A DNA stretch of 64,000 bases from Bradyrhizobium sediminis (lineage in GTDB: Bacteria; Pseudomonadota; Alphaproteobacteria; Rhizobiales; Xanthobacteraceae). Below the pieces are notes generated by a model. It had not been told where the DNA came from. It made no database searches and saw only the letters and a program-made list of their open reading frames with translations. The DNA is taken from NCBI RefSeq assembly GCF_018736085.1, contig NZ_CP076134.1, positions 868,001 to 932,000 on the forward strand, written 5' to 3'. Each line of letters begins with the position of its first letter. Position 1 is the first letter of the stretch. Shown here piece by piece: positions 3,050 through 35,740 of the stretch. Made by a program: the position numbers and the translations under genes.

Positions 3050-3302
3050 TCAAATATCGAAAACAACCCCATGCAAAGTAAGGGTGGTGCCGGCAGGAGA
3101 CTTGCTGGAACGGCCGGCAGCGCATTTGCCGTCACTTTCGTTCCGTCGAGGTGACCAGAGGCAAAATAAGCCCGATTTCCCAGCAGTTTGACTGATGATA
3201 CGAAGCCGGGCCGCGCCCGGCGTAGCCGAAGGCGAAGCCGGGTGGACAGGGCCGCCCGGCCTGACTATAAACCGGCGCTCCCGGGCCTCGGCTCGCGGCA
3301 GT

Positions 3303-3378
3303 GCCCAGGTAGCTCAGTTGGTAGAGCATGCGACTGAAAATCGCAGTGTCGGTGGTTCGATCCCGCCCCTGGGCACCA
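3303..3378 (+). tRNA. tRNA-Phe (GAA)
   Basis: A 76-nt cloverleaf. Acceptor GCCCAGG pairs with CCTGGGC; D stem GCTC/GAGC; anticodon stem TGCGA/TCGCA around loop CTGAAAA with anticodon GAA; T arm GGTGG-TTCGATC-CCGCC; discriminator A and an encoded CCA. All stems pair fully. The 5' flank and first 13 nt (3269-3315) are duplicated at 6295-6341, and a decayed whole copy lies at 4762-4837. Confidence 0.97.
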
Positions 3379-3445
3379 TTTCCTGCACGCTCCTTCCGCC
3401 CGCGGGCGGTTTGAGACGGCCGCTGCGCCGGCGGTGCCCACGAAT

Positions 3446-4591
3446 CTATCCCATGACAGCTGCTGCGTTCGCGGACGCCCTCGGGACGACGGGCGGGCTC
3501 GCGATGCTGCGCCCGTTGCGACGCTCATGATGGAATTCAAGCACGCGTTTTGCCGTCCGGGTCTCGAGCCGCTCGAAGTCTTCGCGCACCCGGGCAAGAT
3601 CCTTTTCAGACATCCTGCGGTCCGCCGCCGTCATCAGCAAGAGAGCCTTGACCGTAGCCCAGGAGCAGCCGGCGGCTTTTGCGATGACCTGCACCACGCC
3701 GGGGTTTTCATTGAGGATCGCCCGTTCAGCCATCTCGATAGGACAGCAGGCGAGAACCGACAGCGCCATTGCCGCTTGTTCGAAGTTTTGCGCGCGCGCG
3801 GCCGCATGAACATTGCCTTCGCCGAGTTCATGCCAGTTCTGCAGCCGCTTTACCCTCGACCTGGCTCTGGCGTGATCCGGCGACCTGTTGCGAATCTCCA
3901 GATTGATGTCGTCGATCACCTCTGTCACCGCGTCCTGCACGGCATCGGCAAATTGCGGGTTTGCCGCCAGCATCCTGGCGCGGACTGAAGCAGAGGCGGT
4001 TTCAAGAAGCTTCAGGAAGTGATGCCTTGGAATGTCATGTCGCATTCCAACCTGCAGCGCGAGCTGGGAATCATCGCCGGCCCGTGCGACGAGCTCGCGA
4101 AAGCTGCCATCCGAAAAGCGGGCGCCGGCGTTCTTCGCAACCGTATGGACCACGATGGGCTCGCCGCGCTCGATCAGTATTTCGGTGATCACTTCGCTGA
4201 TCGTTCGACGATGCGCGATGGCCTGAAGATGACCCTGGCCCTGGGTACGGGCGTTGGCGACGAGGTCGCAGTCGCTGAGTGCCGTCGACTGGCTGAGAAC
4301 CGGAGCCGCCACAGCGACGGCTTCGTCGAAGGCAAACGCGCGAACCAGCGTCGCCGGCGCATCCGGGATGGTTGCGATGTGGCGTGCGAGCCTGACCCGG
4401 GTCTCCAGCTCGATGACCGCAACAAGGGCTTTGAATACCTCGTCAAACAGCTCGATCTGCTTCTTCGAATGACGACCGGACCCGGCGACGAATAGATTGG
4501 CGATGCGCGTGAGTGCCCTTAACTGCCTCTTCGTCAGTCCGGAGACCGTTGTGTCCTGAATTTCATTAATCAGAGAGGAGAACATTGTCAT
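3446..4591 (-). CDS. DUF2336 domain-containing protein
   Basis: A 381-aa protein resembling the alphaproteobacterial DUF2336 family, whose function is unknown. It is largely alpha-helical with no signal peptide or clear membrane segment. Helical repeats such as TKRQLRALTRIANLF near the N-terminus, RLARHIATIPDAPATLVRAFAFDE and FRELVARAGDDSQLALQVGMRHDIP suggest a HEAT-like solenoid. I chose the ATG at 4591 (MTMFSSL), dropping twenty upstream residues that look non-coding; MFSSL six nt later is also possible. It sits alone between the intact tRNA-Phe and the decayed tRNA-Phe copy, which suggests it arrived or was rearranged with that duplication. Confidence 0.75.
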   Translation of the reverse strand: MTMFSSLINEIQDTTVSGLTKRQLRALTRIANLFVAGSGRHSKKQIELFDEVFKALVAVIELETRVRLARHIATIPDAPATLVRAFAFDEAVAVAAPVLSQSTALSDCDLVANARTQGQGHLQAIAHRRTISEVITEILIERGEPIVVHTVAKNAGARFSDGSFRELVARAGDDSQLALQVGMRHDIPRHHFLKLLETASASVRARMLAANPQFADAVQDAVTEVIDDINLEIRNRSPDHARARSRVKRLQNWHELGEGNVHAAARAQNFEQAAMALSVLACCPIEMAERAILNENPGVVQVIAKAAGCSWATVKALLLMTAADRRMSEKDLARVREDFERLETRTAKRVLEFHHERRNGRSIASPPVVPRASANAAAVMG

Positions 4592-5135
4592 GGCTATCGT
4601 CTCGTCAGACTTCTTCGCGGTTGAGGGGGGAGACAGGAGGATCACAATCACATGCTAGCGTCCGAGCATGAAAATAACTGGTCTCAGTTCCCTCGTAGAT
4701 AATTCAAATTGTTGCGACTTCGAAAACGCCTTCTGCCCGTAGCCTCGCCTGCGCTGGAAGTGTCTAGGTCGCCCGGCCGGCAGAGCATGCGGCTGAAAAT
4801 AGCAGTGTCGGTGGTTCGATCCCGTTCCCTGGCGGGTTTTGGCCGGAAGGCGACAAGCCGCCGCTGACATTGCGGGTAAGGGTAAACTGGAACACGGCCG
4901 GCGCCCCTTCAACGAAGCGCAAATCCAATTTCGTCGACACCCGATTGTGCTTCTTGCGCGGCGTCAGGCGGCAATCCAGTCTTGGAGCTGCCCGCGGCGA
5001 CGGGCGGCGGCCGCTGCCGCTGTTGGATTGTCCAGGATACGACAATTCCCGGTAGCACGGATCTTGCAGTATCTGGAATTGTATCGGCTTCCACACTTCG
5101 GGAGCGCCTTACGTTGTTCGAAAGAGGTGCGGCAG
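4592..5135. other. Intergenic zone containing a decayed tRNA copy
   Basis: 544 nt without a credible gene. It contains the pseudo-tRNA at 4762-4837. The remaining open frames are antisense readings of the tRNA copy or lack a start site and family resemblance. Base composition is less GC-rich near 4670-4720 than in neighbouring genes. Confidence 0.6.
4762..4837 (+). pseudogene. Decayed tRNA-Phe copy
   Basis: It aligns without gaps over 76 nt to the tRNA-Phe at 3303-3378. The core GAGCATGCG, CTGAAAAT and GCAGTGTCGGTGGTTCGATC is kept, including the GAA anticodon. Changes break function: acceptor pairs 4-69 and 5-68 mismatch, the D stem has C-A, the anticodon stem has G-A, the T stem is reduced to wobbles, and CCA has become GGT. 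The 5' third has diverged most. It is a duplication or former attachment-site relic and is not expected to be charged. Confidence 0.85.
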
Positions 5136-5564
5136 ATGGACGAGCTGTTTGCGATATGCTCGACCTACGAGGTCGATGATGGCGGTGCGCGAGGCTTCGT
5201 GCTGGCGCGGCCGGACGAGACCGGGACCAGCAAGCCCTGGCCGATCCTCGTCACCCGCAAGGCCAATAATTTCTACGGCTTCGAAAATGCCTGCCCGCAT
5301 CAGGGCTCGCGACTGGATACGGTCCCGGGGGAATTCCTCGATGAGGACGGCAATTTCATCACCTGCGGAAAACATCATGCCCAGTTCGATCTCGACACCG
5401 GCCGCTGCTTCATCGGCCCCTGTCAGGGAAAGACACTGACGCTGATCAAGCTGGTGATCGATGACGGCGACGTGTGCCTGACCGGTGTCGAACTGGCCGA
5501 AGAGGACGGGCTCGACATCGCCGAGCCGGACGAGATGCCGGAGGTCATGATCACGGGCGATTGA
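5136..5564 (+). CDS. Rieske [2Fe-2S] domain protein (ferredoxin-like)
   Basis: A 142-aa small Rieske protein, an electron carrier of the ring-hydroxylating-dioxygenase ferredoxin / NirD type. Cluster ligands are visible as CPHQGS (Cys-x-His) and, about 30 residues later, CGKHHAQFD (Cys-x2-His). An N-terminal beta segment (DELFAICSTYEV) and an acidic C-terminal tail flank the fold; there is no signal peptide or membrane anchor, so it is cytoplasmic. The ATG at 5136 follows AAAGAGGTG at good spacing; the longer open frame upstream includes the pseudo-tRNA and is rejected. No oxygenase or reductase partner is adjacent; the gene downstream is of unknown type. Confidence 0.88.
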   Translation: MDELFAICSTYEVDDGGARGFVLARPDETGTSKPWPILVTRKANNFYGFENACPHQGSRLDTVPGEFLDEDGNFITCGKHHAQFDLDTGRCFIGPCQGKTLTLIKLVIDDGDVCLTGVELAEEDGLDIAEPDEMPEVMITGD

Positions 5565-5677
5565 TCCGGGCCGGACCGACCGATCCCGGCGCCGCGGCCA
5601 AGCCGGTTCTGATCCGCCGATGCGAAAGACGGCCGATATCACACGACCCGCTTCCATCTCCAACAAGGACCATGATC

Positions 5678-6217
5678 ATGACAGCCATTGCCGACACGCC
5701 CTTCGCCAAGCTCGACGGCGAAGGCCGGCTTCTGAAGCCGATCTTGAATGCCGATACTCATGTTGCCGGCCGGTTCGGCTATCGCGGCGAAATTTCCTAT
5801 GACGGTCCGGAGACCCTCCTGAAGGAAGTGTTCTCGATATCCGAAAGCGGTAAGCCGGCTATCGGCTTCCTGGCCGGATCGATCAAGGAATACGAAACCC
5901 TGCCCAAGCTGGTTGAGACTCTCGGGACGGCGCTCAATGGCGACGGCAAATACTTCATCTATATTGCCGATCTGCCGCGGGGAAACCGGTTCCATATCCG
6001 GTTTGGCGACGTCAACATCCTCGCCATCTCCATCGACGAAACGACCGTCTACAATGAATTGATCGACACTTTCTATGTCGACAAGGTCAAGCTCAAGAAG
6101 TTCGATACCTCCGCCAAGCTCGATGCGCTGGCCGATGTCGGCCTGCAATATTCCTCTCCGTCGGATTATGCCGAGATTTCCTACGAAGACGGATTGAAGC
6201 GGAAAAATGCCGCGTGA
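5678..6217 (+). CDS. Hypothetical protein downstream of the Rieske gene
   Basis: A 179-aa soluble protein I do not recognise. It has no signal peptide, membrane segment or cysteine cluster. Composition is mixed and rich in Lys, Asp and aromatic residues, with segments ETLLKEVFSISESGKPAIGF, KYFIYIADLPRGNRFHIRFG and VNILAISIDETTVYNELIDTFYVD suggesting an alpha/beta fold. The ATG at 5678 is 8 nt after AAGGA; an in-frame ATG two codons earlier is too close to that site. It follows the Rieske gene by 113 nt on the same strand, so a shared transcript is plausible. GC is a little lower than in neighbouring housekeeping genes. Confidence 0.7.
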   Translation: MTAIADTPFAKLDGEGRLLKPILNADTHVAGRFGYRGEISYDGPETLLKEVFSISESGKPAIGFLAGSIKEYETLPKLVETLGTALNGDGKYFIYIADLPRGNRFHIRFGDVNILAISIDETTVYNELIDTFYVDKVKLKKFDTSAKLDALADVGLQYSSPSDYAEISYEDGLKRKNAA

Positions 6218-6229
6218 CGCCGGCGAAGC

Positions 6230-6294
6230 GTCTCAGGCGTGGCCGGGTCTGCGTTGTGGACGTGCACCACGGTCACATGCGGAATGTTGCGATC
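6230..6294 (-). pseudogene. Relic of an exported 2H-phosphoesterase-like gene
   Basis: Read on the minus strand this stretch encodes NIPHVTVVHVHNADPATPET, nearly the same as NIPHVTVVHIHSADPATPEK inside the intact gene at 15527-16402. On the plus strand GGCGTGGCCGGGTCTGC and CACATGCGG match exactly. Only about 21 codons remain and the reading frame breaks on both sides, so this is a fragment and not a gene. Confidence 0.8.
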
Positions 6295-6341
6295 AAACCG
6301 GCGCTCCCGGGCCGTGGCTCGCGGCAGTGCCCAGGTAGCTC
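6295..6341 (+). repeat. 47-nt duplicate of the tRNA-Phe 5' boundary
   Basis: It matches 3269-3315 over 47 nt with two mismatches. The source segment covers 34 nt of upstream flank plus the first 13 nt of tRNA-Phe (through AGGTAGCTC). It begins exactly where the gene relic at 6230-6294 stops. The duplication looks younger than the decayed tRNA copy at 4762. Confidence 0.88.
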
Positions 6342-6415
6342 GCCATCGGGGTTCTATGGCATGAGGCCATCTCGCGACGGACGTTATCCCTTCGGACAAT
6401 CCCCCTCCAGGCCGG

Positions 6416-8532
6416 TCACGCGGCGGAAGTCGTCAATTCCCGGCATACGCTCGAGGCGGGGTAGTCAGCCGCCATGTCGATCAGGATATCCGACAGGATA
6501 AGGGCCGCGGCATCGACCCGCGGCATGGGTCTACCGAACAGATAGCCCTGATAATAGTCGCAGTTCAAATTGCGGAAGAAATTCGCCTGCTCCGGCGTTT
6601 CGATGCCTTCGACCGTGACTTTCATGTTCAGATTTCGTCCCAATTTCACGATCATGTTGAGAACGGGGACGTTTGCATTTTCAGTGCCGAGGACGCCGGC
6701 GACAAATGACTTGTCGATCTTGAATTTGTCGAACGGAAGCTTCGAAAGATTCCCGAGGCTGGAATGACCGGTGCCGAAATCATCCATCACGATCGTCGCC
6801 CCGACCCGTTTGAGTTCGGCAAGCTGTTCCACGACCGACTCGTTTGCCTCCAGCAACAAGCCCTCCGTTATCTCGAGCTCCAGCCTGCCGGCCTCCAGAC
6901 CGCTCTCGACAATAGCGTCACGGACGATCACCCCGATCGGGACGGCGCCAAAGAACTGCGCGGGCGACAGGTTGACTGCAATCGTTAGATGCGCGGGCCA
7001 GGTCGCGGCGACGTGGCATGCGTGGTGAACAACCCAGGCGCCGATCTGGTTGATGACGCCGATTTCTTCCGCCAAGGGCACGAAGTCAGTGGGCGAAATG
7101 AATCCGCCTTCTCCGTCCGGCAGTCGCAAGAGCGCTTCAAAGCCGGCGAGTCTCGAGTTGTTGTCGACCAGCGGCTGGAAGAACATCTCGAATTCACAGG
7201 CATCGATCGCTTGTCGGATTCGAAGTTCGATTTGCCGTTTCTGGTTCAGTTCATGGCGCATGGACGGCGAAAACAGCACATAGCGCCGGCGTCCGTCATC
7301 CTTTGCCCGGTAGAGCGCAATGTCGGCATTTTCAAGTAGCTGGCTCGGCGACGAACTGTCGGTAGCGACATGAGCCGTTCCGACGCTCGCGGAAATCGTC
7401 AGTAGATTGCGCTGAAGCTGGAATGGTATGGCCATTGACGCAACAATTCGCGCCGCCATCGAATTGACGTCCGCCGGCTTACGAACCTGCATCTGGGCCA
7501 GAGCGAACTCATCGCCCCCGAGCCGGCACAGAATGTCCCCACCGCTCAGCAAAGTCCGCAACCGCTTGGCTGCCGCACAGATCAATTCATCGCCGACCTT
7601 GTGCCCAAGCCTGTCATTGATTTCCTTGAAGCGGTCGAGATCGATGTAGTGGAGTGCAACGAGGCGCTGCCCGTCTTTGGTGGCGAAGGCCTTGCCAAGT
7701 TCCGAAAGGAACGCGTTGCGATTCAGCGTCCCGGTCATGGTGTCGTGGTGGGCCAGGTATTGAAGGCGCCGCACCGCTTGCAACTTTTCCTGATTATAGC
7801 GTCTGAACAGCGCCGTACCCGCAAACAAAATGGCGATGACGATCAGGGTCGGAAAGGCTATCGCCAGCGTGATCATCCTGCCTTTTTCCTCCGCCGAGGC
7901 AAGATATGGCTCAATGACCTTGGTCACTTCCATCACGGCGCGGACATCCCCCAATTTCCAGTTCTTCTTCGGGGAGTCTGCCTGCGTATTGTGACACGAC
8001 ACGCATGTATCGCTTGCCATGCGATCCGACACGGCGACGCGCAGCACGCGCCTTCCGTTATGTACTTCCTCCCTCGAGAAGACCGCCGAGGGATCCGCCT
8101 GAAACGCCTGCCAGGCGTTTCGCTGAAAATCGTCCATGACGCGTCCGGCGCGATGGGGCCAGGGATAAGGACTCACTAGCGAGAGCGTGGTATCCTTCTC
8201 GCGCAGCAGTTCCGAAATGTCCTGAACGAAGGTTGCCGGCAGCGGTATGGCGTTTGGATCGGAGCGTGGTCGTGACTCGGCGCCAGCGCGTGGGAGGCCA
8301 GCGCCTTCGCCACCACCTGGCGGGTGTAGTAGCCTCGCGTGATCTTGATCTGATCGGCAATCTCGATGTTTCCGCGATAGGCCGACTCGATTGCTGCCGA
8401 CTTCATCGCCTGGGGAAGAAAAAAGCACATGGCCGCCAGGCCGGAACACAGCACGGCCGCGACAGAGGCAGCGATAACAAGCTCGAGACGAACGCTGTTT
8501 CGCCAGTATGAGAGTATTTTTCGCCCCAACAT
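6416..8532 (-). pseudogene. GGDEF-EAL c-di-GMP protein with a heme-type sensor domain, frameshifted
   Basis: Intended product is a membrane-bound c-di-GMP enzyme of about 705 aa. It starts MLGRKILSYW at 8532 with a membrane segment near residues 15-38. A DUF3365/Tll0287-like sensor follows (IPLPATFVQDISELL, KDTTLSLVSPYPWP) with one CXXCH heme motif, CVSCH, then a second membrane segment (LIVIAILFAGTALF). A GGDEF domain with intact RLGGDEF and an EAL domain with FEALLR, DDFGTGHSSL and KIDKSFV complete it. The N-terminal 90 codons are one frame off the rest; continuity is restored by one extra base near 8256-8264. It is either inactivated or a sequencing error. No partner gene is adjacent. Confidence 0.85.
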
Positions 8533-9038
8533 CTTTGTCCCACCCGTCTGAGTCGGGGCGAACCTAATGTCCTGCACTTAAATGCCGGGTAAGAAAAACG
8601 GTTAAGGCGAGGTTTGCGGCTATGCCTGCCAGGTGCGCCCGGGGAAAGTGACGGAGCCCGAATTCGCAGGCAGTGACAAAAGGCCCGCCATCGAGTGAGC
8701 GTTCGCATGGCCTTGCGCCGGAATGAGTCGTGAATCTCCCGGCCCGTATAAATACGGGATTGGTCGCGTGTGGTTCTTTACCGTTGCGCTTTGAGGCGGA
8801 TGCTTACAAGCTCAGGACGTCAGGAACGCCCCCGATGTCTTCTTTGCGGAGGAGAGCTTGGTCTCGAATCCGTGCCGGCTCGGTAACTCACACTGAGAGA
8901 GCGGTTCGACTGCCTTGCAAGTTCGGAAGTGGACCGGCCCGAAAAGGTCTGGATGCGGGCGTAGTAGAAAATTCATCATTCGCCTTCCGTCCGATTCTTC
9001 CACCGAACATCTCGCATCCAGCGATCGCGACTCCCGGA
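8533..9038. other. Intergenic region with a 16-nt palindrome
   Basis: 506 nt between the start of the GGDEF-EAL gene and the end of the CoA-transferase operon. Open frames here lack ribosome sites or family resemblance. The one distinct element is the perfect palindrome CCCGTATAAATACGGG at 8743-8758, two 7-nt arms about a 2-nt centre, of unknown role. Confidence 0.5.
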
Positions 9039-9782
9039 CTACGCCGCTTCCATCATCGCGCGCGCGAAGGCGGGGTAGGTCTCGGACAGCTCGCCCATGA
9101 TTCGTCCCCGCAGCAGCGCCAGTGTTTCGGCATCGGGAGCGGCGGTGGTGGGAACGATCTGCGGCTCGCGGTAGTCGAAGCCGGTATTGGCGCGGATGTC
9201 GGCAGGCGAATAACCCGGATGCACCGAGCGCAGGGAAAAGCCGCCGCGGGCGCGGTCGAAATCGAATAACGCCATGTTGGTGAGGAGCGCGTGCGGCCCG
9301 CCGCGGCGCGCCACTTCAGGCGTCGAGGCCGCCGCGCTGACGAAGTCGACCGCGGGGACGAAGACGCGCCGCGAGTGTTCCTCGCGGAACAGGATGACGC
9401 GTGGGATCAGGTGATAGAGATAGGCCGAGCCGAACGATCCCGGCCATCGCACGCCGGTTTTCGGGTACTCGCCGGTGCCGACCAGGTTGATGTTGCCGCT
9501 TCCGTCGATCTGTCCGCCGCCGAGGAAGAAGGCGTCGACGCGGCCCTGCGCCGCGCAGTCGAACAACTCCACGCCGCCGTTGGTGAAGAAATTATGCTGT
9601 TGCGATCCCAGGATCGAAATCCGGACCGGCGGCTTGCCGTCACGCTCGTTGCGCGCGCGCAGCAGCATGGCGCCGGCAGCCGGAATCGGCGACGAGGCGC
9701 CGACCGCGACGTGGCGGATACCGTCGAGCAGATCGGCGATGGTGGCAATCAGGATTTCCCGGCGTTCGCGCTCGTTTGCCAT
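9039..9782 (-). CDS. CoA-transferase family protein, beta subunit
   Basis: A 247-aa subunit of the family I CoA-transferase group (glutaconate CoA-transferase / IpdB-like), expected to pair with the subunit encoded just upstream. Seen: GASSPIPAAGAMLLRA near the N-terminus, FFLGGGQIDGSGNIN, and a C-terminal PGYSPADIRANTGFDY block typical of the beta subunit. In glutaconate CoA-transferase a catalytic Glu lies in an IVESG-like strand; here the corresponding strand reads ISILGSQQH, with no Glu. The ATG at 9782 lies 5 nt after the alpha-subunit stop; upstream codons of the open frame overlap that gene and are rejected. It is the last gene of the TRAP operon. Confidence 0.85.
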   Translation of the reverse strand: MANERERREILIATIADLLDGIRHVAVGASSPIPAAGAMLLRARNERDGKPPVRISILGSQQHNFFTNGGVELFDCAAQGRVDAFFLGGGQIDGSGNINLVGTGEYPKTGVRWPGSFGSAYLYHLIPRVILFREEHSRRVFVPAVDFVSAAASTPEVARRGGPHALLTNMALFDFDRARGGFSLRSVHPGYSPADIRANTGFDYREPQIVPTTAAPDAETLALLRGRIMGELSETYPAFARAMMEAA

Positions 9783-9787
9783 GGCGG

Positions 9788-10600
9788 TCACGCCACCTGC
9801 CTGCGGCGGCCGAGGAAACCGGAGAGATAGGCGCGAAAGCCTTCCTCGGTCCGCGCCATCGCGGCGTAGCGCGCGACTTCCGCGTCGTCGCCGGGATATT
9901 CGTCCCACAGCGGCAGCGGCCAGGCGCCGCGCTCGGCGACCGCAATCCGGTCGACATAAAGCGAGGGCAGCACGCCCGCGGCCGAGTCTTCCGTTGCCAA
10001 TAGACTGCGGTCGACGATGCGCTCCACCGTGACCAAGGTCCGTTTGGCGGCATAGGCCATCGCCGCCAGTTCGCGGTGGCGGCCGATCCGGATATTGCCG
10101 GCGCGATCGGCCTCGGGAGCGTGAAACAGCGCGATGTCGGGCGCAATGGCCGGCACCACCACGACCTTGCCGGCCTCGCCGACGGGGCTGTCGATCACCT
10201 TCCAGTCCGGCCGCACCCGCAGCAGATCGCTGCCGACGATGCCGGCGATCGGCATGAAGGGCACGCCTTTCTGGGCGGCCAGCAGGCCGGCAAAGATCGC
10301 GGGGCAGGTCGAATCGCGCAAGCTGAACGCGCCGTCGCGGACGGCGGCGCCGAACCGCGGTGCGGCGCCGGCCTCGCCCAGCGAAACCGCGCTGGTCTCC
10401 AGCGCGCCCACCATCCCGGCGCCGATCAGCAGATCGGCCTGCATGCCGCTGATCGGCACGCAGACGATACGGAGGTCCGTGGTGCCGGCCTCGATCAGCG
10501 CTGCGGTCGCCGCCATCGACACGCCCTCGACGGGGATCGCGATCGACTGGCCCGGTCTGACGAGTTCGGCCAGCGCTTCGAGCGAAACGATCTCTGCCAT
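9788..10600 (-). CDS. CoA-transferase family protein, alpha subunit
   Basis: A 270-aa alpha subunit of the glutaconate-CoA-transferase / IpdA type. Seen: VRPGQSIAIPVEG near residue 15, ALIEAGTTDLRIVCVPISGMQADLLIGAG, a SLGEAGAAPRF segment where the family places its substrate loop and, in IpdA-type enzymes, a key Glu, then VIDSPVGEAGKVVVVPAIAPDIALFHAPEADRAGNIRI. The ATG at 10600 follows GGGAGG-type bases. It is followed by the beta subunit and preceded by TRAP permease genes, so the likely job is to attach CoA to, or remove it from, the acid the transporter brings in. The substrate is unknown. Confidence 0.85.
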   Translation of the reverse strand: MAEIVSLEALAELVRPGQSIAIPVEGVSMAATAALIEAGTTDLRIVCVPISGMQADLLIGAGMVGALETSAVSLGEAGAAPRFGAAVRDGAFSLRDSTCPAIFAGLLAAQKGVPFMPIAGIVGSDLLRVRPDWKVIDSPVGEAGKVVVVPAIAPDIALFHAPEADRAGNIRIGRHRELAAMAYAAKRTLVTVERIVDRSLLATEDSAAGVLPSLYVDRIAVAERGAWPLPLWDEYPGDDAEVARYAAMARTEEGFRAYLSGFLGRRRQVA

Positions 10601-10752
10601 GGGAGGTTCCTTGGGCTGTTCCTCAGCTGTCTGCGTTTTCCGTCATGATATCCATTTCCGGTTCATGCGAAAGCCGCACGCGGCGAGGGGCGGCGATGCG
10701 GCGATCGCATCGCTTGCCGCCTTTCGGGATATGCGAGTGCCGAGGCGTCCGC

Positions 10753-12639
10753 TCAACCGCCGTACAGATAATTCGGCAGCCACAGCGTCAGGCCCGGCCA
10801 GATGTACATGAAGATCATGCAGACGATGACGATCAGCATGTAGGGCATCATGCCGGCGAAGATCTGGTTGAGGGTGACGTGCTTCGGCGCCACGCCCTTC
10901 AGGTAGAACGCCGACATCGCCACCGGCGGCGACAGGAACGCCGCCTGCAGGTTCACGAACACCAAGACGCCCCACAGGATCGGGTCGATGTTGAAGTGCT
11001 TCAGCATCGGCAGGAAGATCGGCACGAAGATCACGATGATCTCGGTCCATTCCAGCGGCCATCCCAGGATGAAGATGATCGCCTGCGACAGGATCATGAA
11101 CTGGACCGGCGTCATGTTGAGCGACAGCACCCAGGTCTCCAGGAGCGCCTGGCCGCCGAGGATCGCAAACACCGCGGAGAACAGCGCCGAGCCCACGAAC
11201 AGCCAGCACACCATCGAGGTGGTCTTGGCGGTGAGGAACACCGCTTCCTTGGTGCGCTTCCAGTCCAGCGTGCGGGCCTGGAACGCGAGCAGGAAGGCGC
11301 CGGCGGCGCCGACCGCGGCGGATTCCGTCGCCGTGGTGATGCCGAGCAGGATTACCGCCAGCACGATCACCGTCAAAATGCCGAGCGGCATCACCGAGGA
11401 GATCAACAACCGCAGCACCTCGAACTGTTCGGCCTCCATGATCCAGTAGTAATAGAGCAATAGCAGGCCGAAGATGCCGCAGATGAACGCGAAGTAGATG
11501 TAGAACTCCGGCGCTGGCCCGGCCTCCGAGGGCGCGGCCGTGATCTTGCCGCGGAGTTCGGCGCTGCCCATCTGCTGCAGCGCTTCCGGCTCCTCCTTGG
11601 TCGCGGCTCCGGCTTTGTGGCCGGCGCCGAGTTCCTCGAGCTTTTCTTCCGCAGGCTGCGTGCTCGCGCCGGCGCCGAGCTGCTGGGGCGCGGTTTCCAG
11701 GCGCTGCTGGGTGGTCGCCGCGACCGGCGTCGGGAGGTCCGGCTGCTGGTGGATCACGACATACCACCATGCCGCCCCCAGCGTGGCCAGCGTCAGCACC
11801 AGCGGGATCAGCGCGTAGCCGAGATTTTTCAGCAGCATCGGGTAGCCGATGCGGGCGCCGTCGGCGGTGATGCTCATGGCCCTGGCCGGCGACAGCACGG
11901 CGGCGAACAGCGCCGGCAGCATCTTGCGCGAATAGGCCTGCTGCAACTCGGCGACCCATGGCCGGACCGGAACCCGGGTCTCGCTCTCGGGCAGCTTTGG
12001 CGCGATCTTCGGGTTCAGCAGCGCCCAGCCGATGACGTAGACGAGATAGAGGAGCGCCAGGAAGAAGCCCGGAAACATCGCCGCGGCGTAGAGCTTGACC
12101 ACCGACTGCCCGGCGACCGCGGCATAGACGATGATCATCACCGAGGGCGGAATCAGGATTCCGAGCGTGCCGCCGGCGGTGATGACGCCGGCAGCGAGCC
12201 TCACGTCATATCCGGCCTTCAGCATCGGATTGAAGGCGATCACGCCCATCAGCACCACGACGGCGCCGACCAGGCCCGAGGCGATGCCCCAGAAGGTGCA
12301 GACGATCAGGGTCGCGACCGCGAGCGAAGCCGGCACGCGACGGAAGGCGAGCTGGATCGAATAGAACATCTTGTCGACCAGCGCGCCGCGCTCCATGACG
12401 TAGCCCATCAGCACGAACAGCGGAATCGAGATCAGGACGTCGTTGGTCATCGCGCCGTAGGTGCGCTGGACCATCAGGTCGAAGATATGATTGTCGGCCC
12501 AGGCCTCGCCGCCGCGGTAATAGGCGAAGAAGCCGAAGAACATGCCAAGGCCCATCAGCGTGAACGCGGTCGGGAAACCCATCACGATGACGACCACGAT
12601 TAAGCCGAGCATCAGGAGCCCGAGTGCCGGATCGCTCAT
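10753..12639 (-). CDS. TRAP transporter large permease (DctM type) with a large internal insertion
   Basis: A 628-aa inner-membrane permease of a tripartite ATP-independent periplasmic transporter, which uses an ion gradient to import organic acids delivered by a binding protein. DctM signatures: MGFPTAFTLMGLG near the N-terminus, ISIPLFVLMGYVMERG, GIASGLVGAVVVLMG, AAGVITAGGTLGILIPPS, TATESAAVGAAGAFLLA and AAFLSPPVAMSAFYLKGVAP near the end. A typical DctM is about 425 aa; here roughly residues 230-400 are extra, with two added membrane segments around a hydrophilic Gln/Glu/Ala-rich linker. The start overlaps the small-permease stop by 4 nt. Confidence 0.92.
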   Translation of the reverse strand: MSDPALGLLMLGLIVVVIVMGFPTAFTLMGLGMFFGFFAYYRGGEAWADNHIFDLMVQRTYGAMTNDVLISIPLFVLMGYVMERGALVDKMFYSIQLAFRRVPASLAVATLIVCTFWGIASGLVGAVVVLMGVIAFNPMLKAGYDVRLAAGVITAGGTLGILIPPSVMIIVYAAVAGQSVVKLYAAAMFPGFFLALLYLVYVIGWALLNPKIAPKLPESETRVPVRPWVAELQQAYSRKMLPALFAAVLSPARAMSITADGARIGYPMLLKNLGYALIPLVLTLATLGAAWWYVVIHQQPDLPTPVAATTQQRLETAPQQLGAGASTQPAEEKLEELGAGHKAGAATKEEPEALQQMGSAELRGKITAAPSEAGPAPEFYIYFAFICGIFGLLLLYYYWIMEAEQFEVLRLLISSVMPLGILTVIVLAVILLGITTATESAAVGAAGAFLLAFQARTLDWKRTKEAVFLTAKTTSMVCWLFVGSALFSAVFAILGGQALLETWVLSLNMTPVQFMILSQAIIFILGWPLEWTEIIVIFVPIFLPMLKHFNIDPILWGVLVFVNLQAAFLSPPVAMSAFYLKGVAPKHVTLNQIFAGMMPYMLIVIVCMIFMYIWPGLTLWLPNYLYGG

Positions 12640-13304
12640 TTCAAAAGGTCTCCGCCCATGCCGCGCTGCCGCGCGCTCTCCTCAATGTCCTGCGCGTGCT
12701 CGATCGCGGCCCTGCGCGTCTCCTCATCGACATGTTCGGAGAGCGCCAGCTGCTCCTCGACCACGTCGATTTCGCTGACGTCCTTGAGCCGGCTCGGCCA
12801 CACCCCGGTCTTCAGGCAGACGATGCTGCGCACGATTTCGGCCGCGCCCTGCAGCAGCAAGAGCGCCCCCGCCAGGGGAATCATGAATTTGAAATGGTAG
12901 ACCGGCGGTCCTTCCGCGGTGACGTTGGAATGCTCGTTGATCCGCCATGAGTCCGAGGCGTAGTCCCAGCCGGCGTATAGCAGCGCCGCGATGCCGGGCA
13001 GGAAGAACACGATGTAGAGCACGAGATCGAGCCCGGCCTGGGTGCGCGGCCGCATCGAACTGTAGAGAAAGTCGCCGCGGACATGGGCGTTCTGCGCCAG
13101 TGTGTAGGCGCCGCCGATCATGAACAGGGTGCCGTACAGCATGTTGGAGGCGTCGAAGATCCACGCCGTCGGCATATTGAGAATATAGCGCTTGAAGACC
13201 TCGGCGCAAACCAGGGCCATCAGCCCGACGATCAGCCAGGCCGCGGCCTTGCCGGTCCAGGTGCTGATGCCGTCGATCGTGTGCAGGAAGCGCTGCGCGT
13301 TCAT
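12636..13304 (-). CDS. TRAP transporter small permease (DctQ type)
   Basis: A 222-aa four-helix membrane subunit that pairs with the large permease. Membrane segments: AAAWLIVGLMALVCAEVF, ASNMLYGTLFMIGGAYTLA, DLVLYIVFFLPGIAALLYAG and FKFMIPLAGALLLLQGAAEI. The family motif W-x-F-x2-S(N) near the second helix and NAHVRGDFLYSS after it are visible. A long acidic cytoplasmic tail rich in Glu and Arg is unusual for DctQ. I chose the ATG at 13304 (MNAQRFLHTIDG); the frame opens 21 codons further up and MTVPKTLE is an alternative. The stop overlaps the DctM start, indicating coupling. Confidence 0.88.
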   Translation of the reverse strand: MNAQRFLHTIDGISTWTGKAAAWLIVGLMALVCAEVFKRYILNMPTAWIFDASNMLYGTLFMIGGAYTLAQNAHVRGDFLYSSMRPRTQAGLDLVLYIVFFLPGIAALLYAGWDYASDSWRINEHSNVTAEGPPVYHFKFMIPLAGALLLLQGAAEIVRSIVCLKTGVWPSRLKDVSEIDVVEEQLALSEHVDEETRRAAIEHAQDIEESARQRGMGGDLLK

Positions 13305-13416
13305 GGGATGTCTTGCCGCAGGTTCGAGTGTTTTCGGTACCGTCATCATGACAATACAACGCATCACCCGGGCATTGGCTAGCCCGGATGACGCGTCGCC
13401 GGTACGGACTATACCG

Positions 13417-14553
13417 TCAGGTCTTCTTCTTGGCGTTCGGCCCGAAGTAGTGGTTGTAGGCCATACGGCGGTTCACCACCGTATCCTGCTCCCACTGGGT
13501 CGCACGCTTGGCGAACGCCAGCTGGGAGGCGACGATTTCCTTGAACAGCGGATTTTCCGCCGACTTCTTCTCCACGACCGCGTCGTAGATCTCCAGCTGC
13601 TTCTGCAGGATCGCGTCCGGCGTCTTGTAGAATTTGACCTTATCCTTGGTCTGCAGTTCCTCGTAGTCCTTGGAATAGCGATCGATCGCCTTCCAGGCCA
13701 TGTCCTGACCAGCCGCCTCGGTGGCGTTGGCGATGATCGCTTTCATCTTTTCGGGCAGGGCGTCGTATTTGGTCTTGTTGAACATGATCTCGAACTGCTC
13801 GGCGTTCTGGTGGTAGCTCTGCAGCATGCAGACCTTGGAAACGTCCGCGAAGCCGAGAATGCGGTCCGAGGTGGCGTTGTTGAACTCGGCGGCATCGAGC
13901 AGGCCGCGGTCCATCGCCGAGACGATTTCGCCGCCGGGCAACGCGTTCACCGCGGCGCCCATGCCGGTGAACACGTCGATCGAGATGCCGACCGTGCGGA
14001 ACTTGACGCCCTTGAGGTCGTCCGCCTTGGTGACCGGTTTCTTGAACCAGCCGAGCGGCTGGGTCGGCATCGGCCCGTAGGGAAACGAGACGACGTTGGC
14101 GCCGATCGAGGCGTACAGCTTCGCGAGCAGTTCCTTGCCGCCGCCATATTTGTGCCAGGCGAGCAGCATGTTGGCGTCCATCGCATAGCCCGGGCCGGAG
14201 CCCCACAGCGCCAGCGCGGTCTGCTTGCCGTAGTGATAGACCAGCACGCCGTGGCCGCCGTCGAGGGTGCCCTTCGACACCGCGTCGAGCAGGCCGAAAG
14301 CGGGCACGACCGCGCCTGCGGGAAGCACCTCGATCTTGAGGTCGCCGCCGGTCATGTCGTTGACCTTCTTGGCGTAGTCCAGCGCGTATTCGTGGAAGAT
14401 GTCCTTGGCCGGCCAGGTGCTCTGCCAGCGCATGCTGATCGGGCCCTGCGCGCTGACAATGGTTGGCGCCGTGACCGTTGCGGCGGCGCCCGCGGCGGCC
14501 GTTTTCAGAAAGCGGCGGCGGCTGGAAGTGGTGTCCTTCTTGGAGGTCGTCAT
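13417..14553 (-). CDS. TRAP transporter substrate-binding protein (DctP type), Tat-exported
   Basis: A 378-aa periplasmic binding protein. The N-terminus carries a twin-arginine signal, SSRRRFLKTAAAGAAATV, with cleavage likely near SAQG, so it is exported folded. Mature features of the DctP family: RWQSTWPAKDIFHEYA, VLPAGAVVPAFGLLDAVSKGTLDGGHG, LKGVKFRTVGISIDVF and EFNNATSDRILGF. It resembles the mannitol/chloroaromatic-type TRAP group, whose members often bind keto or aromatic acids. It is the promoter-proximal gene of the leftward operon leading to the permeases and CoA-transferase; 112 nt separate it from DctQ and include a short hairpin near 13368-13387. Confidence 0.92.
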   Translation of the reverse strand: MTTSKKDTTSSRRRFLKTAAAGAAATVTAPTIVSAQGPISMRWQSTWPAKDIFHEYALDYAKKVNDMTGGDLKIEVLPAGAVVPAFGLLDAVSKGTLDGGHGVLVYHYGKQTALALWGSGPGYAMDANMLLAWHKYGGGKELLAKLYASIGANVVSFPYGPMPTQPLGWFKKPVTKADDLKGVKFRTVGISIDVFTGMGAAVNALPGGEIVSAMDRGLLDAAEFNNATSDRILGFADVSKVCMLQSYHQNAEQFEIMFNKTKYDALPEKMKAIIANATEAAGQDMAWKAIDRYSKDYEELQTKDKVKFYKTPDAILQKQLEIYDAVVEKKSAENPLFKEIVASQLAFAKRATQWEQDTVVNRRMAYNHYFGPNAKKKT

Positions 14554-15403: not shown

Positions 15404-15526
15404 CCCCGGCGCTCGCCGGGCTGCGCCCGATCATTTCAGCGGGTAGCCGAAGATCGATCGGGCGCCGGGCCGGCGGCGCCTCGCGAAGCAGGGCTCGATC
15501 CCGTGCCAGGGCGGAATCGGCCGGCG

Positions 15527-16402
15527 TCACTTCATCGCGATCTTTCCCGTAGCCACGTTCAGGATCGATCCGTCCTGAAGATTGATCCGGTAGATTTCCC
15601 GCAAGACGTTTCCGGCAAATCCCAATTCCACGATCGAAACGCTCTTCAACGATGTGGCAATTCCATTGGGCAGGATCTGGTTGAACTCGGCGGCCGTCTG
15701 ATTCCAGTACTTCTGCAACTCCGGGGTAAACTTCGCATTGCTGTAAACCAGCGTGTTATGCGGATTGTACGACCGCAGTTCCTTGCCATCCTTGATGACG
15801 TTGACGCCGCTGACGCCGACGGTTTTCACCAGCTCTTTTGCTGCATCGCTCATGTTGGCGTAGACCGGCCCGGTGCAGCGCGGCAGCGGGCCGTCACGCA
15901 GCGGGGTCAGTGCGGCGGTAGCCGCGGTGTTGAATGCCATCATGTTCTCGAAGCTCTCGCCTTCCTTGACGATACCAAGGTCGAGCCACCATGGCTGACC
16001 GGCGCCCTTGGCGGCTTCCGTGGTATAGAAATTCTTCAGGGTGACATTGAGAACCGGCGGCAGCTTCGGCAGCGCTTTGAGCATTTTTTCCGGCGTGGCC
16101 GGGTCTGCACTGTGGATATGCACCACTGTCACATGCGGGATGTTGTGATTCTGCGCTTCGGTGTCGAGTTTCGCGTTCAGAAGTTTTTCCCGCAGCAGGC
16201 CCTTGACCGTCGCGTCGAGGGTCTCGTTCACTTCCTTCGGGAGGGTGTAGACGAGGCCGAAGGTTCGCTGATGCGGACGAAAGGCGGCGCCCGAAAGCGC
16301 GCTGTTGTCGATCGCGACGTCCGCCGATGCCACGGGCGAAAACAGCGCCGATGCTCCTGCAACAAGCGCTGCTGCAATATGATTGGTCAGTCTCGAGGCC
16401 AT
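15527..16402 (-). CDS. Exported protein with two H-x-T motifs, 2H-phosphoesterase-like
   Basis: A 291-aa exported protein. The ATG at 16402 follows AAGGAAAG and starts a signal peptide (MASRLTNHIAAALVAG...PVASA). The mature part has two H-x-T-hydrophobic motifs, HVTVVHIH near residue 80 and HNTLVYSN near residue 220, the hallmark spacing class of the 2H phosphoesterase superfamily (2'-5' RNA ligase / cyclic phosphodiesterase fold). Also seen: RTFGLVYTLPKEVN before the first motif and PWWLDLG between them. A periplasmic location is unusual for that superfamily. A 65-nt relic of a second copy lies at 6230-6294. The role is unknown; the superfamily call is inference. Confidence 0.7.
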   Translation of the reverse strand: MASRLTNHIAAALVAGASALFSPVASADVAIDNSALSGAAFRPHQRTFGLVYTLPKEVNETLDATVKGLLREKLLNAKLDTEAQNHNIPHVTVVHIHSADPATPEKMLKALPKLPPVLNVTLKNFYTTEAAKGAGQPWWLDLGIVKEGESFENMMAFNTAATAALTPLRDGPLPRCTGPVYANMSDAAKELVKTVGVSGVNVIKDGKELRSYNPHNTLVYSNAKFTPELQKYWNQTAAEFNQILPNGIATSLKSVSIVELGFAGNVLREIYRINLQDGSILNVATGKIAMK

Positions 16403-16710
16403 GCCGCTTTCCTTATTGTCAGCGATAGGAAAATTCGATCGAGATCGCTCGTGTCCGCGTCGGGAGGTGCGATCGTCACGCTGCAAACTATGCATCCGGA
16501 ATGTGACAGCTGTGTTGCGGATGCGGGCCCGTTGCGCTCGGTCGGGAGAACGGAAAAATCCGGCGATGCCGGAAAGAAGACCTGCGATGGTGCGTAACCC
16601 AGGCATAGCCCGGGATTGCGCGTGGAATCGCTTTCCATGAGAGGAGCACTATAGCGCTCCATGGCGGGGCTCGCCGGGGATATTGTTATTCAGGCGATGC
16701 GGCCCTTGCC

Positions 16711-33826: not shown

Positions 33827-35740
33827 ATGAACATCCAGAGCAGCAGCCGGTATCACGAGGTCCATGCCCGCTCGGTCAAGGACCCGGAAGGATTCTGGGC
33901 CGAGGCGGCGCGCGAGATCGACTGGATCGAGCCGGCGAAAAAGGTGTACGATCCTTCGACGGGAATCTATGGCCGCTGGTTCGCCGGCGCCATGGTCAAC
34001 ACCTGCTACAATGCGCTCGACCGCCATGTCGCAAGCGGTCGCGCCGACCAGGTGGCGCTGATCCACGATTCGCCGCTGGCGGGCGGCCGCATCACCAAAT
34101 TAACCTATGCCGAGATGCTGCATGAGGTGAAGACGCTCGCCGCCATCATGCAGGATTTCGGCGTCGCCAAGGGCGATCGCGTCATCCTCTATATGCCGAT
34201 GGTGCCGGAAGCGGTGGTTGCGATGCTGGCCTGCGCGCGGATCGGCGCGGTGCACAGCGTGGTGTTCGGCGGATTTGCCGCCAAGGAACTTGCAACCCGG
34301 ATCGAGGATGCCAAGCCGAAGCTGATCTTTTCGGCAAGCTGCGGCCTCGAGCCCGGCCGCATCGTACAATACAAGCCGCTGCTCGACGAAGCCGTCAGGT
34401 TGTCCAGCGTCAAGCCCGAGACCTGCATCATCCTGCAGCGGCCGCAGCACGGTTGCGAACTCACCGCCGGCCGCGATCATGACTGGGCGAGCTTGCGCGC
34501 CGACGCCATTGCCGCCAAGAAATCGGCCGACTGCGTGCCGGTCAAGGCGACCGATCCGCTCTATATTCTCTATACCTCCGGCACCACAGGCATCCCGAAG
34601 GGCGTGGTGCGCGACAATGGCGGACATCTGGTCGCGCTGAAATGGTCAATGTTCAACCTCTACGGCGTCAAGCCCGGCGAGGTCTGGTGGTGCGGCTCCG
34701 ATATCGGCTGGGTGGTCGGTCACAGCTATATCGTTTACGGGCCGCTGATCCATGGCGCGACCTCGGTCATGTATGAGGGCAAGCCGGTCGGCACGCCCGA
34801 CGCCGGCGCGTTCTGGCGCGTGATCGCGGAGCACAAGGCGGTGGCGATGTTCACCGCGCCGACCGCGTTCCGTGCCATCCGGAAAGAGGACCCGGAAGGC
34901 ACGTTCATCCGGCAATACGACCTGTCGAAATTCCGTACCCTGTTTCTCGCCGGCGAGCGCGCCGATCCGCCGACGGTGGAATGGGCGGAGCAGCAATTGA
35001 AGGTGCCGGTGATCGACCACTGGTGGCAGACCGAAACCGGCTGGTGCATCGCCGGCAATCCGGTCGGCCTCGGCATGCTGCCGGTGAAGCACGGCTCGCC
35101 GACGGTGCCGATGCCGGGCTATCAGGTCGACGTCGTCGATGAGGCGACGAAGCCGGTGCCCGCGGGCACCATGGGCTCGATCGTGATCAGGCTGCCGATG
35201 CCGCCGGGTTGCCTGCCGACGCTGTGGCAGCAGGACGAGCGCTTCAAGGAATCCTATCTCAGCGAATTTCCCGGCTACTACAAAACCTCCGACGCCGGCT
35301 ACAAGGACGAGGACGGCTATGTCTGGGTGATGGGCCGCACCGACGACATCATCAATGTCGCCGGTCACCGGCTCTCCACCGGCGGCATGGAGGAGATTCT
35401 CGCCGCCCATCCCGACGTCGCCGAATGCGCGGTGCTCGGCATCAAGGACGCGATCAAGGGCGAGGTGCCCTGCGGCTTCCTGGTGCTGAAGGCCGGCGTG
35501 ACCCGCAAGCCCGCCGAGATCGAAAAGGAGATCGTGGCACTGGTGCGCGACAAGCTCGGCCCCGTCGCGGCCTTCAAGCTCGCGATCACCGTCGGCCGGC
35601 TGCCGAAGACGCGCTCGGGAAAGATCCTGCGCGGCACTATCAAAAAGATCGCCGACGGCGAGGCGTGGGCGATGCCCGCCACCATCGAGGACCCCAAGGT
35701 GCTGGACGAGATCGAGGGCGCGCTGAAGGGAAGGGTGTGA
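33827..35740 (+). CDS. prpE: Acetyl/propionyl-CoA synthetase-type acyl-CoA ligase (PrpE-like)
   Basis: A 637-aa AMP-forming acyl-CoA synthetase, closest to propionyl-CoA synthetase PrpE. It activates a short carboxylate with ATP via an acyl-adenylate. N-terminal ACAS segment (YHEVHARSVKDPEGFWAEAAREIDW, read in part), the P-loop YTSGTTGIPKG, GWVVGHSYIVYGPL, the A5 motif WWQTETGW and the C-terminal catalytic Lys in KTRSGKILRG are all intact. The ATG at 33827 follows GCGGGAGC. It is cytoplasmic and monocistronic in appearance. It fits the organic-acid-uptake theme of the window; acetate or butyrate are possible alternative substrates. Confidence 0.9.
   Translation: MNIQSSSRYHEVHARSVKDPEGFWAEAAREIDWIEPAKKVYDPSTGIYGRWFAGAMVNTCYNALDRHVASGRADQVALIHDSPLAGGRITKLTYAEMLHEVKTLAAIMQDFGVAKGDRVILYMPMVPEAVVAMLACARIGAVHSVVFGGFAAKELATRIEDAKPKLIFSASCGLEPGRIVQYKPLLDEAVRLSSVKPETCIILQRPQHGCELTAGRDHDWASLRADAIAAKKSADCVPVKATDPLYILYTSGTTGIPKGVVRDNGGHLVALKWSMFNLYGVKPGEVWWCGSDIGWVVGHSYIVYGPLIHGATSVMYEGKPVGTPDAGAFWRVIAEHKAVAMFTAPTAFRAIRKEDPEGTFIRQYDLSKFRTLFLAGERADPPTVEWAEQQLKVPVIDHWWQTETGWCIAGNPVGLGMLPVKHGSPTVPMPGYQVDVVDEATKPVPAGTMGSIVIRLPMPPGCLPTLWQQDERFKESYLSEFPGYYKTSDAGYKDEDGYVWVMGRTDDIINVAGHRLSTGGMEEILAAHPDVAECAVLGIKDAIKGEVPCGFLVLKAGVTRKPAEIEKEIVALVRDKLGPVAAFKLAITVGRLPKTRSGKILRGTIKKIADGEAWAMPATIEDPKVLDEIEGALKGRV

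Follow-up and report, generated by a model that had tools for sequence, protein, structure and literature searches.

A tRNA-Phe locus in Bradyrhizobium sediminis that probably retains the eroded remainder of accumulated accessory DNA

We analyzed a stretch of 64,000 nucleotides (nt) from Bradyrhizobium sediminis, hereafter the window (positions 868001-932000 of the 5.55-megabase (Mb) single-contig genome), in which the gene for the phenylalanine transfer RNA (tRNA-Phe) is followed by a short zone of single genes and gene remnants. The intact tRNA gene (3303-3378; ARAGORN, Rfam) stands at one end of the zone. It is followed by a DUF2336 gene, a decayed tRNA-Phe copy, a Rieske gene with a partner gene, a relic of a 2H-like gene, a 47-nt copy of the tRNA-Phe 5' boundary and a GGDEF-EAL gene (Table 1). 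An original prediction, made from the letters of the window, had described this order and had proposed repeated integration or recombination at tRNA-Phe with later loss of the mobility genes. Its gene labels were confirmed by profile searches (PF10098 for DUF2336, PF00355 for Rieske, and the GGDEF and EAL domains), and the partner gene had no match in Pfam, NCBIfam or PHROG. The intact gene, the relic and the leader copy all lie on the + strand, as had been stated.

The decayed tRNA-Phe copy at 4762-4837 shares 58 of 76 letters with the intact gene in an ungapped alignment, and at most 40 were reached when the window was resampled 30 times per query with a first-order Markov model on both strands, indicating that the predicted relic is real. 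Ungapped mismatches number eight in positions 1-30, two in positions 31-63 and eight in positions 64-76, where a 1-nt insertion accounts for some of them; positions 31-63 retain 31 of 33 letters and both ends are worn. The similarity extends weakly for about 20 nt into the leader. Rfam recognized no tRNA at 4762-4837 at E ≤ 1, and the relic is therefore presumably dead. We also ran a second-copy control with 300 base shuffles of eight regions, which were picked where a relic was expected or wanted. Using the tRNA as the query, the remnants beyond DUF2336 exceeded all 300 shuffles in the window (45 versus a maximum of 17) and, by small margins, in the genomes G221 (16 versus 14), G276 (15 versus 13) and G045 (17 versus 14). 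These results suggest that, in part of the clade, DUF2336 formerly had a tRNA-Phe copy on either side.

The 47-nt copy at 6295-6341, which combines 34 nt of leader with 13 nt of tRNA and lies downstream of the tRNA-Phe gene, matches 3269-3315 at 45 of 47 positions, in agreement with the duplicate that had been claimed. In the resampling test it scored 45/48 against a maximum of 29. For comparison within the genus we used 265 genomes, the window genome being included in each count. These searches scored limited candidates per genome (≤2 for the leader copy, ≤4 for GGDEF-EAL, ≤5 for tRNA-Phe copies and ≤7 for DUF2336); thus, gene counts are lower bounds. On this basis, the leader copy was seen only in the window and in G221, and the remaining genus matches to its leader part were primary tRNA loci. 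Its identity to the leader of the window is 45/47, higher than its identity to the G221 leader (83%).

A protein search independently recovered the 2H relic in both the window genome (E 8e-6) and G221 (E 1.1e-10), although the 2H label itself is weak, LigT_PEase scoring 18.6 bits with a cut-off of 23.3. The predicted relic is real, with 87% identity to 16089-16149, and spans 61 nt rather than 65. It had been regarded as a piece of the gene that is intact at 15527-16402. Because the relic differs from that gene by 13%, with most differences common to the G221 relic, and because G221 keeps about 110 nt of the relic and has no intact 2H gene, it is not a recent piece of its intact neighbor. The last part of the G221 relic (locus L101, 8297-8344) is nearly identical to window positions 16150-16198, whereas over the first 60 nt of the relic the divergence is above 10%.

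A detailed comparison of 20 chosen loci and 12 more, drawn from the 265 genomes, identified G221 as a sister genome with the same order as the window: tRNA-Phe, DUF2336, the 5' half of the relic, the 2H relic, the leader copy and GGDEF-EAL. G221 lacks window positions 4792-6215, comprising half of the relic, the Rieske gene and the partner, and its junction joins the anticodon arm of the relic to the base after the partner stop codon. As G221 retains the downstream flank of the partner and G045 has the partner too, we read the difference as a probable deletion in G221, and on the same grounds we discarded an insertion in the window. Insertion of the Rieske gene in the window was likewise set aside in favor of a loss in G045, as Rieske lies upstream of the partner in 10 of 14 loci. 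Conversely, G221 retains about 80 nt between the 2H relic and the leader copy that are missing from the window; ATC stands at both edges of this stretch. The two patches are some 20-30 nt apart in G221, and their abutting in the window is therefore secondary. The scar is older than the split of the two genomes, and loss continued in both lineages.

The tRNA gene itself also differs between the sisters. Its acceptor pair is A-T in the window, as in 10 of 15 relatives aligned, and G-C in G221, G006, G273, G275 and G276. Gaps aside, the window and G221 differ at 62 of about 400 positions around tRNA-Phe (3066-3465; approximately 15%), compared with 11 of 900 upstream (1%) and 66 of 1100 in DUF2336. 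One of the two lineages probably underwent an exchange of the tRNA locus itself.

Islands use tRNA-Phe as a target in this genus. The 3'-terminal 28 nt of the gene (≤2 mismatches) were present in 258 of 265 genomes and occurred in two or more copies in 26 of them; the backwards-read control gave zero in every row. Nine listed same-contig pairs of 3' ends were all same-strand and lay 97 nt to 205 kilobases (kb) apart, including G108 (205 kb), G166 (121 kb), G043 (79 kb), G137 (62 kb), G200 (7.4 kb) and G131 and G190 (about 100 nt each). A third copy in G124 lay on the opposite strand, megabases away. The recurring repeat was either about 45 nt, starting at the anticodon loop and reaching the end of the gene (G108, G166, G137 and G045), or 26-28 nt, covering the T arm and acceptor (G200, G131 and G190). 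In G020, a second, nearly intact tRNA-Phe lies at a distance of 1.16 kb.

Integrases were sought with the PF00589 (Phage_integrase) profile, using the matches listed, in 13 genomes with a further copy (G045, G031, G055, G017, G047, G054, G020, G137, G166, G108, G043, G200 and G124). In four of the 13, a listed match lies between the copies: 136 nt from the intact tRNA-Phe in G108, 132 nt from it in G166, about 0.8 kb inside the far copy in G137 and midway in G124. The DNA that follows maf, yacG and tRNA-Phe differs among the relatives compared. G006 has PRC-barrel-like, permease-like and channel-like open reading frames (ORFs) between tRNA-Phe and DUF2336, labels read from the translations, and G045 has an ArdC-like gene 0.35 kb from tRNA-Phe. 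Ten ORFs from tRNA-Phe-flanked stretches of G031 and G055 included no integrase; three had no family, and the families found were transport, porin, regulator and caspase-domain. Another ten from G045, G273, G053, G231 and G048 also included no integrase, with one ArdC-like protein (G045). Relatives thus carry different DNA at tRNA-Phe, some of it with an integrase, as expected of a hotspot.

The original prediction had proposed looking for relatives with an empty site or an integrase-bearing island. G108 and G166 have an integrase beside the gene, and in G182 tRNA-Phe is followed by 35 nt and then by the end of the TRAP-like operon at window position 10752. G182 looks like an empty site, relative to which the extra segment of the window is 3379-10751; the boundary accordingly falls at 10751 and not at 6.4 kb, as had been anticipated. 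The gene to the right of 6.4 kb is itself rare (at least 2 of 265 genomes). A uniform order across the genus with no empty-site relatives, which would have spoken against the proposal, was not observed: the order varies and G182 is empty-like.

The genes of the zone are sparse in the genus. DUF2336 was found in at least 21 of 265 genomes at E ≤ 1e-80, and the GGDEF-EAL gene (query 6416-8395) in at least two, the window and G221, at E ≤ 1e-180. The 2H-like gene was found in three of 265 genomes, namely the window, G274 and, as a relic, G221; its named matches among 120 listed of 1379 include several Rhodopseudomonas and Afipia and two labelled Bradyrhizobium. Rieske relatives occurred in 117 of 265 genomes at E ≤ 1e-15, at least 12 of these at ≥73% identity. 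Relatives of the partner occurred in 161 of 265 at E ≤ 0.001; among those listed, only G045 is close (91%) besides the window, the others reaching 34-40%. Close copies of the partner are found in G045, Afipia, Azorhizobium and Xanthobacter. Rieske lies directly upstream of the partner on the same strand in 10 of 14 loci (Afipia, Azorhizobium, Xanthobacter and a Rhizobiales bin); the other four include G045 and one cut by a contig end. In G273, DUF2336 fragments lie 0.7 kb after tRNA-Phe (L107, 11744-11909) and a full copy lies 4.6 kb after it. In G033, a few hundred bases separate a Rieske relative (77%) and a TraD-like conjugal transfer gene (L138, 5013-6315).

A diverged Rieske gene and partner are convergent neighbors near a NifB-like gene in the window genome (approximately 1750083-1763253; L137) and in G261 (L140). 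As the partner has no Pfam match, 161 of 265 genomes carry a relative and a NifB-like gene is a neighbor, its family may be unnamed and linked to nitrogen fixation. No nod, nif or secretion genes were present among the zone genes scanned, and no conjugation families appeared in the Pfam scan of five zone genes (DUF2336, Rieske, partner, GGDEF-EAL and CoA transferase). PHROGs returned no informative phage family for eight proteins. None of the six listed Phage_integrase matches of this genome falls inside the window, consistent with the earlier statement that no integrase remains.

We consider that the interval is probably what erosion has left of accessory DNA that had accumulated at a tRNA-Phe integration hotspot. 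Accessory DNA would accrete at tRNA-Phe, the site where relatives carry mobile islands, and DUF2336, the Rieske-partner operon, the 2H gene and the GGDEF-EAL gene may have arrived there in one or more insertions, brought by integrases as we infer. The mobility genes would have been lost afterwards, the deletions seen in comparison with G221 and G045 being small, and short deletions would have worn the zone down in both the window and the G221 lineages. The 47-nt leader copy may be the remnant of a third tRNA-locus copy that arose by local duplication rather than through an integrase. The proposal of repeated integration with loss of the mobility genes is thus retained in part: the hotspot and the sparse genes agree with it, the leader copy does not, and the loss of an integrase is inferred rather than seen.

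Several observations weigh against accretion by integration. Integration at the 3' end of a tRNA gene displaces a 3' fragment. Islands with a 5' tRNA fragment account for 159 of 3919 in the Islander collection, according to the portion of that paper available (PMC4383910), and the 5' fragment of such an island would be expected upstream of the restored gene; a leader copy downstream of the gene does not fit any integrase model. Relatives have half-sites, whereas the relic spans the whole tRNA, and the zone has neither an integrase match nor a clean attachment half. Nine of the 13 genomes searched have no listed PF00589 match between the copies (G031, G055, G017, G047, G043, G200, G054, G020 and G045), the tRNA-Phe copies of G045 being on different contigs. 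In G006, G273 and G025, no second tRNA copy beyond DUF2336 rose above chance in 300 shuffles, and with the leader included in the query, one of 300 shuffles reached or beat the G276 score. DUF2336 lies far from tRNA-Phe in G053, G031 and G164. Finally, the arrangement in G182 could have arisen by deletion and need not be an empty site.

In a different explanation, no mobile element took part. Unequal exchange would have duplicated the tRNA-Phe locus with its leader twice, ordinary recombination would have interposed other genes, and the extra copies would have decayed. The third copy with its leader (45/47), the weak leader similarity of the relic to about -20 and the nearly intact second tRNA-Phe of G020 are all consistent with such tandem duplication. 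However, the intervening genes are sparse, relatives have integrases at the site, the listed second copies in the genus carry at most 8 nt of leader, and the leader copy was seen only in the window and G221. We regard tandem duplication with loss as unlikely.

Alternatively, a single break could have received copies of both the neighboring 2H fragment and the leader sequence through template switching or end joining. Two short patches lie together in the window and G221, each in its source orientation and with unrelated flanks, and the sources of both are within 10 kb. The present intact 2H copy is, however, an improbable template, as it is 13% different and absent from G221, where the patches are also separated by 20-30 nt; moreover, a complete gene and a complete tRNA copy that eroded would explain both. 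Patch insertion at a repair junction is thus quite improbable. If true, it would be a bacterial counterpart of templated insertions, and tRNA-proximal mosaics would arise partly by patching and not by integrase alone. GC-rich DNA readily yields short matches, such as the one at 15489, which lies within the resampled range. However, the tRNA relic and the leader copy exceed resampling, and G221, which is a separate genome on a single contig, also has remnants of all three pieces. This leaves chance similarity or an assembly artefact a negligible chance of being correct.

Accretion and erosion at a tRNA gene are a known process, of which the locus would be a well-preserved example. The tRNA-gene islands of Islander, as far as the available part of the paper describes them (PMC4383910), similarly have a restored tRNA gene with same-strand displaced copies, with crossover subsites at the anticodon and at the T-stem/junction, and tandem arrays are known. 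These subsites fit the two repeat lengths of the genus relatives (about 45 and 26-28 nt). In the window, the candidates for displaced copies are a same-strand, full-length, decayed one (4762-4837) and a 5' piece with leader (6295-6341). The zone differs from those islands in that it has no integrase, its relic is full length and its leader-bearing 5' copy lies downstream. ICEMlSymR7A, a Mesorhizobium symbiosis island, occupies the 3' end of a phe-tRNA gene, according to an excerpt (PMC8627217); the target gene is the same, in another genus of Rhizobiales, and the window is without an integrase. Within Bradyrhizobium, excerpts of PMC9239051 describe symbiosis integrative and conjugative elements (symICEs) at tRNA-Val, tRNA-Ile and tRNA-Pro with scars and remnants, that is, integrase-bearing elements beside tRNA genes with partial losses in the same genus; those excerpts do not name tRNA-Phe as a site, and the window interval is small in comparison. 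The tRNA-gene hot spots of Sinorhizobium meliloti show repeated integration at one gene with 3'-end direct repeats in the accessible text (PMC11476347); in contrast, other tRNA genes are used and the elements there carry integrases.

Our literature search, including the available part of PMC9239051, found no mention of tRNA-Phe as an island site in Bradyrhizobium, and the genus comparison adds it as such in these genomes. The scar is also present in the sister genome G221, which allows some of the losses to be placed in order. An acquired-gene zone at a tRNA gene would thereby be seen to shrink by short deletions to single genes and decayed tRNA copies. Island finders that require an integrase, such as Islander by its own description in the part available (PMC4383910), would miss such zones.

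Table 1. Positions of features in and beside the tRNA-Phe zone, in window coordinates
Feature	Positions	Strand	Evidence or remark
Leader directly upstream of tRNA-Phe	3269..3302	+	Matched by the 47-nt copy
Intact tRNA-Phe (GAA)	3303..3378	+	ARAGORN; Rfam 68.7 bits
DUF2336 gene	3446..4591	-	PF10098, E 1.9e-65
Decayed full-length tRNA-Phe copy	4762..4837	+	58/76 ungapped matches
Segment absent from G221	4792..6215	.	Ends within a base or two
Rieske [2Fe-2S] gene	5136..5564	+	PF00355, E 1.4e-9
Partner gene	5672..6217	+	No Pfam, NCBIfam or PHROG match
2H-like gene relic, 61 nt	6233..6293	-	Corresponds to 16089-16149, 87%
47-nt copy of tRNA-Phe leader and first 13 nt	6295..6341	+	Corresponds to 3269-3315, 2 mismatches
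Tll0287-like/GGDEF/EAL gene	6416..8449	-	Pfam GGDEF and EAL domains
Two CoA-transferase-like genes	9039..10600	-	9039-9908 Pfam CoA_trans; 9788-10600 weak NCBIfam match far below cut-off
TRAP-transporter-like operon	10752..14553	-	DctP-like match of 13417-14553, below curated cut-offs
Segment with intact 2H-like gene (15527-16402)	15423..16703	-	Absent at this place in G221

Beyond the GGDEF-EAL gene, the two coenzyme A (CoA)-transferase-like genes had no match at the G182 locus. The TRAP-like label of the operon, which includes a putative permease ORF at 10753-12639, comes from the DctP-like match of 13417-14553. Elsewhere in the window, ARAGORN called a tRNA-Asp(atc) at 35317-35391, which had no Rfam match and is probably a false call. 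A string resembling a tRNA 3' end (T-arm-like) at 15489, beside the intact 2H gene, was considered as a scar and dropped, as its 16/23 matches compare with a resampled maximum of 18. The segment that holds this gene is missing between the same neighbors in G221, reflecting either a gain in the window or a loss in G221.

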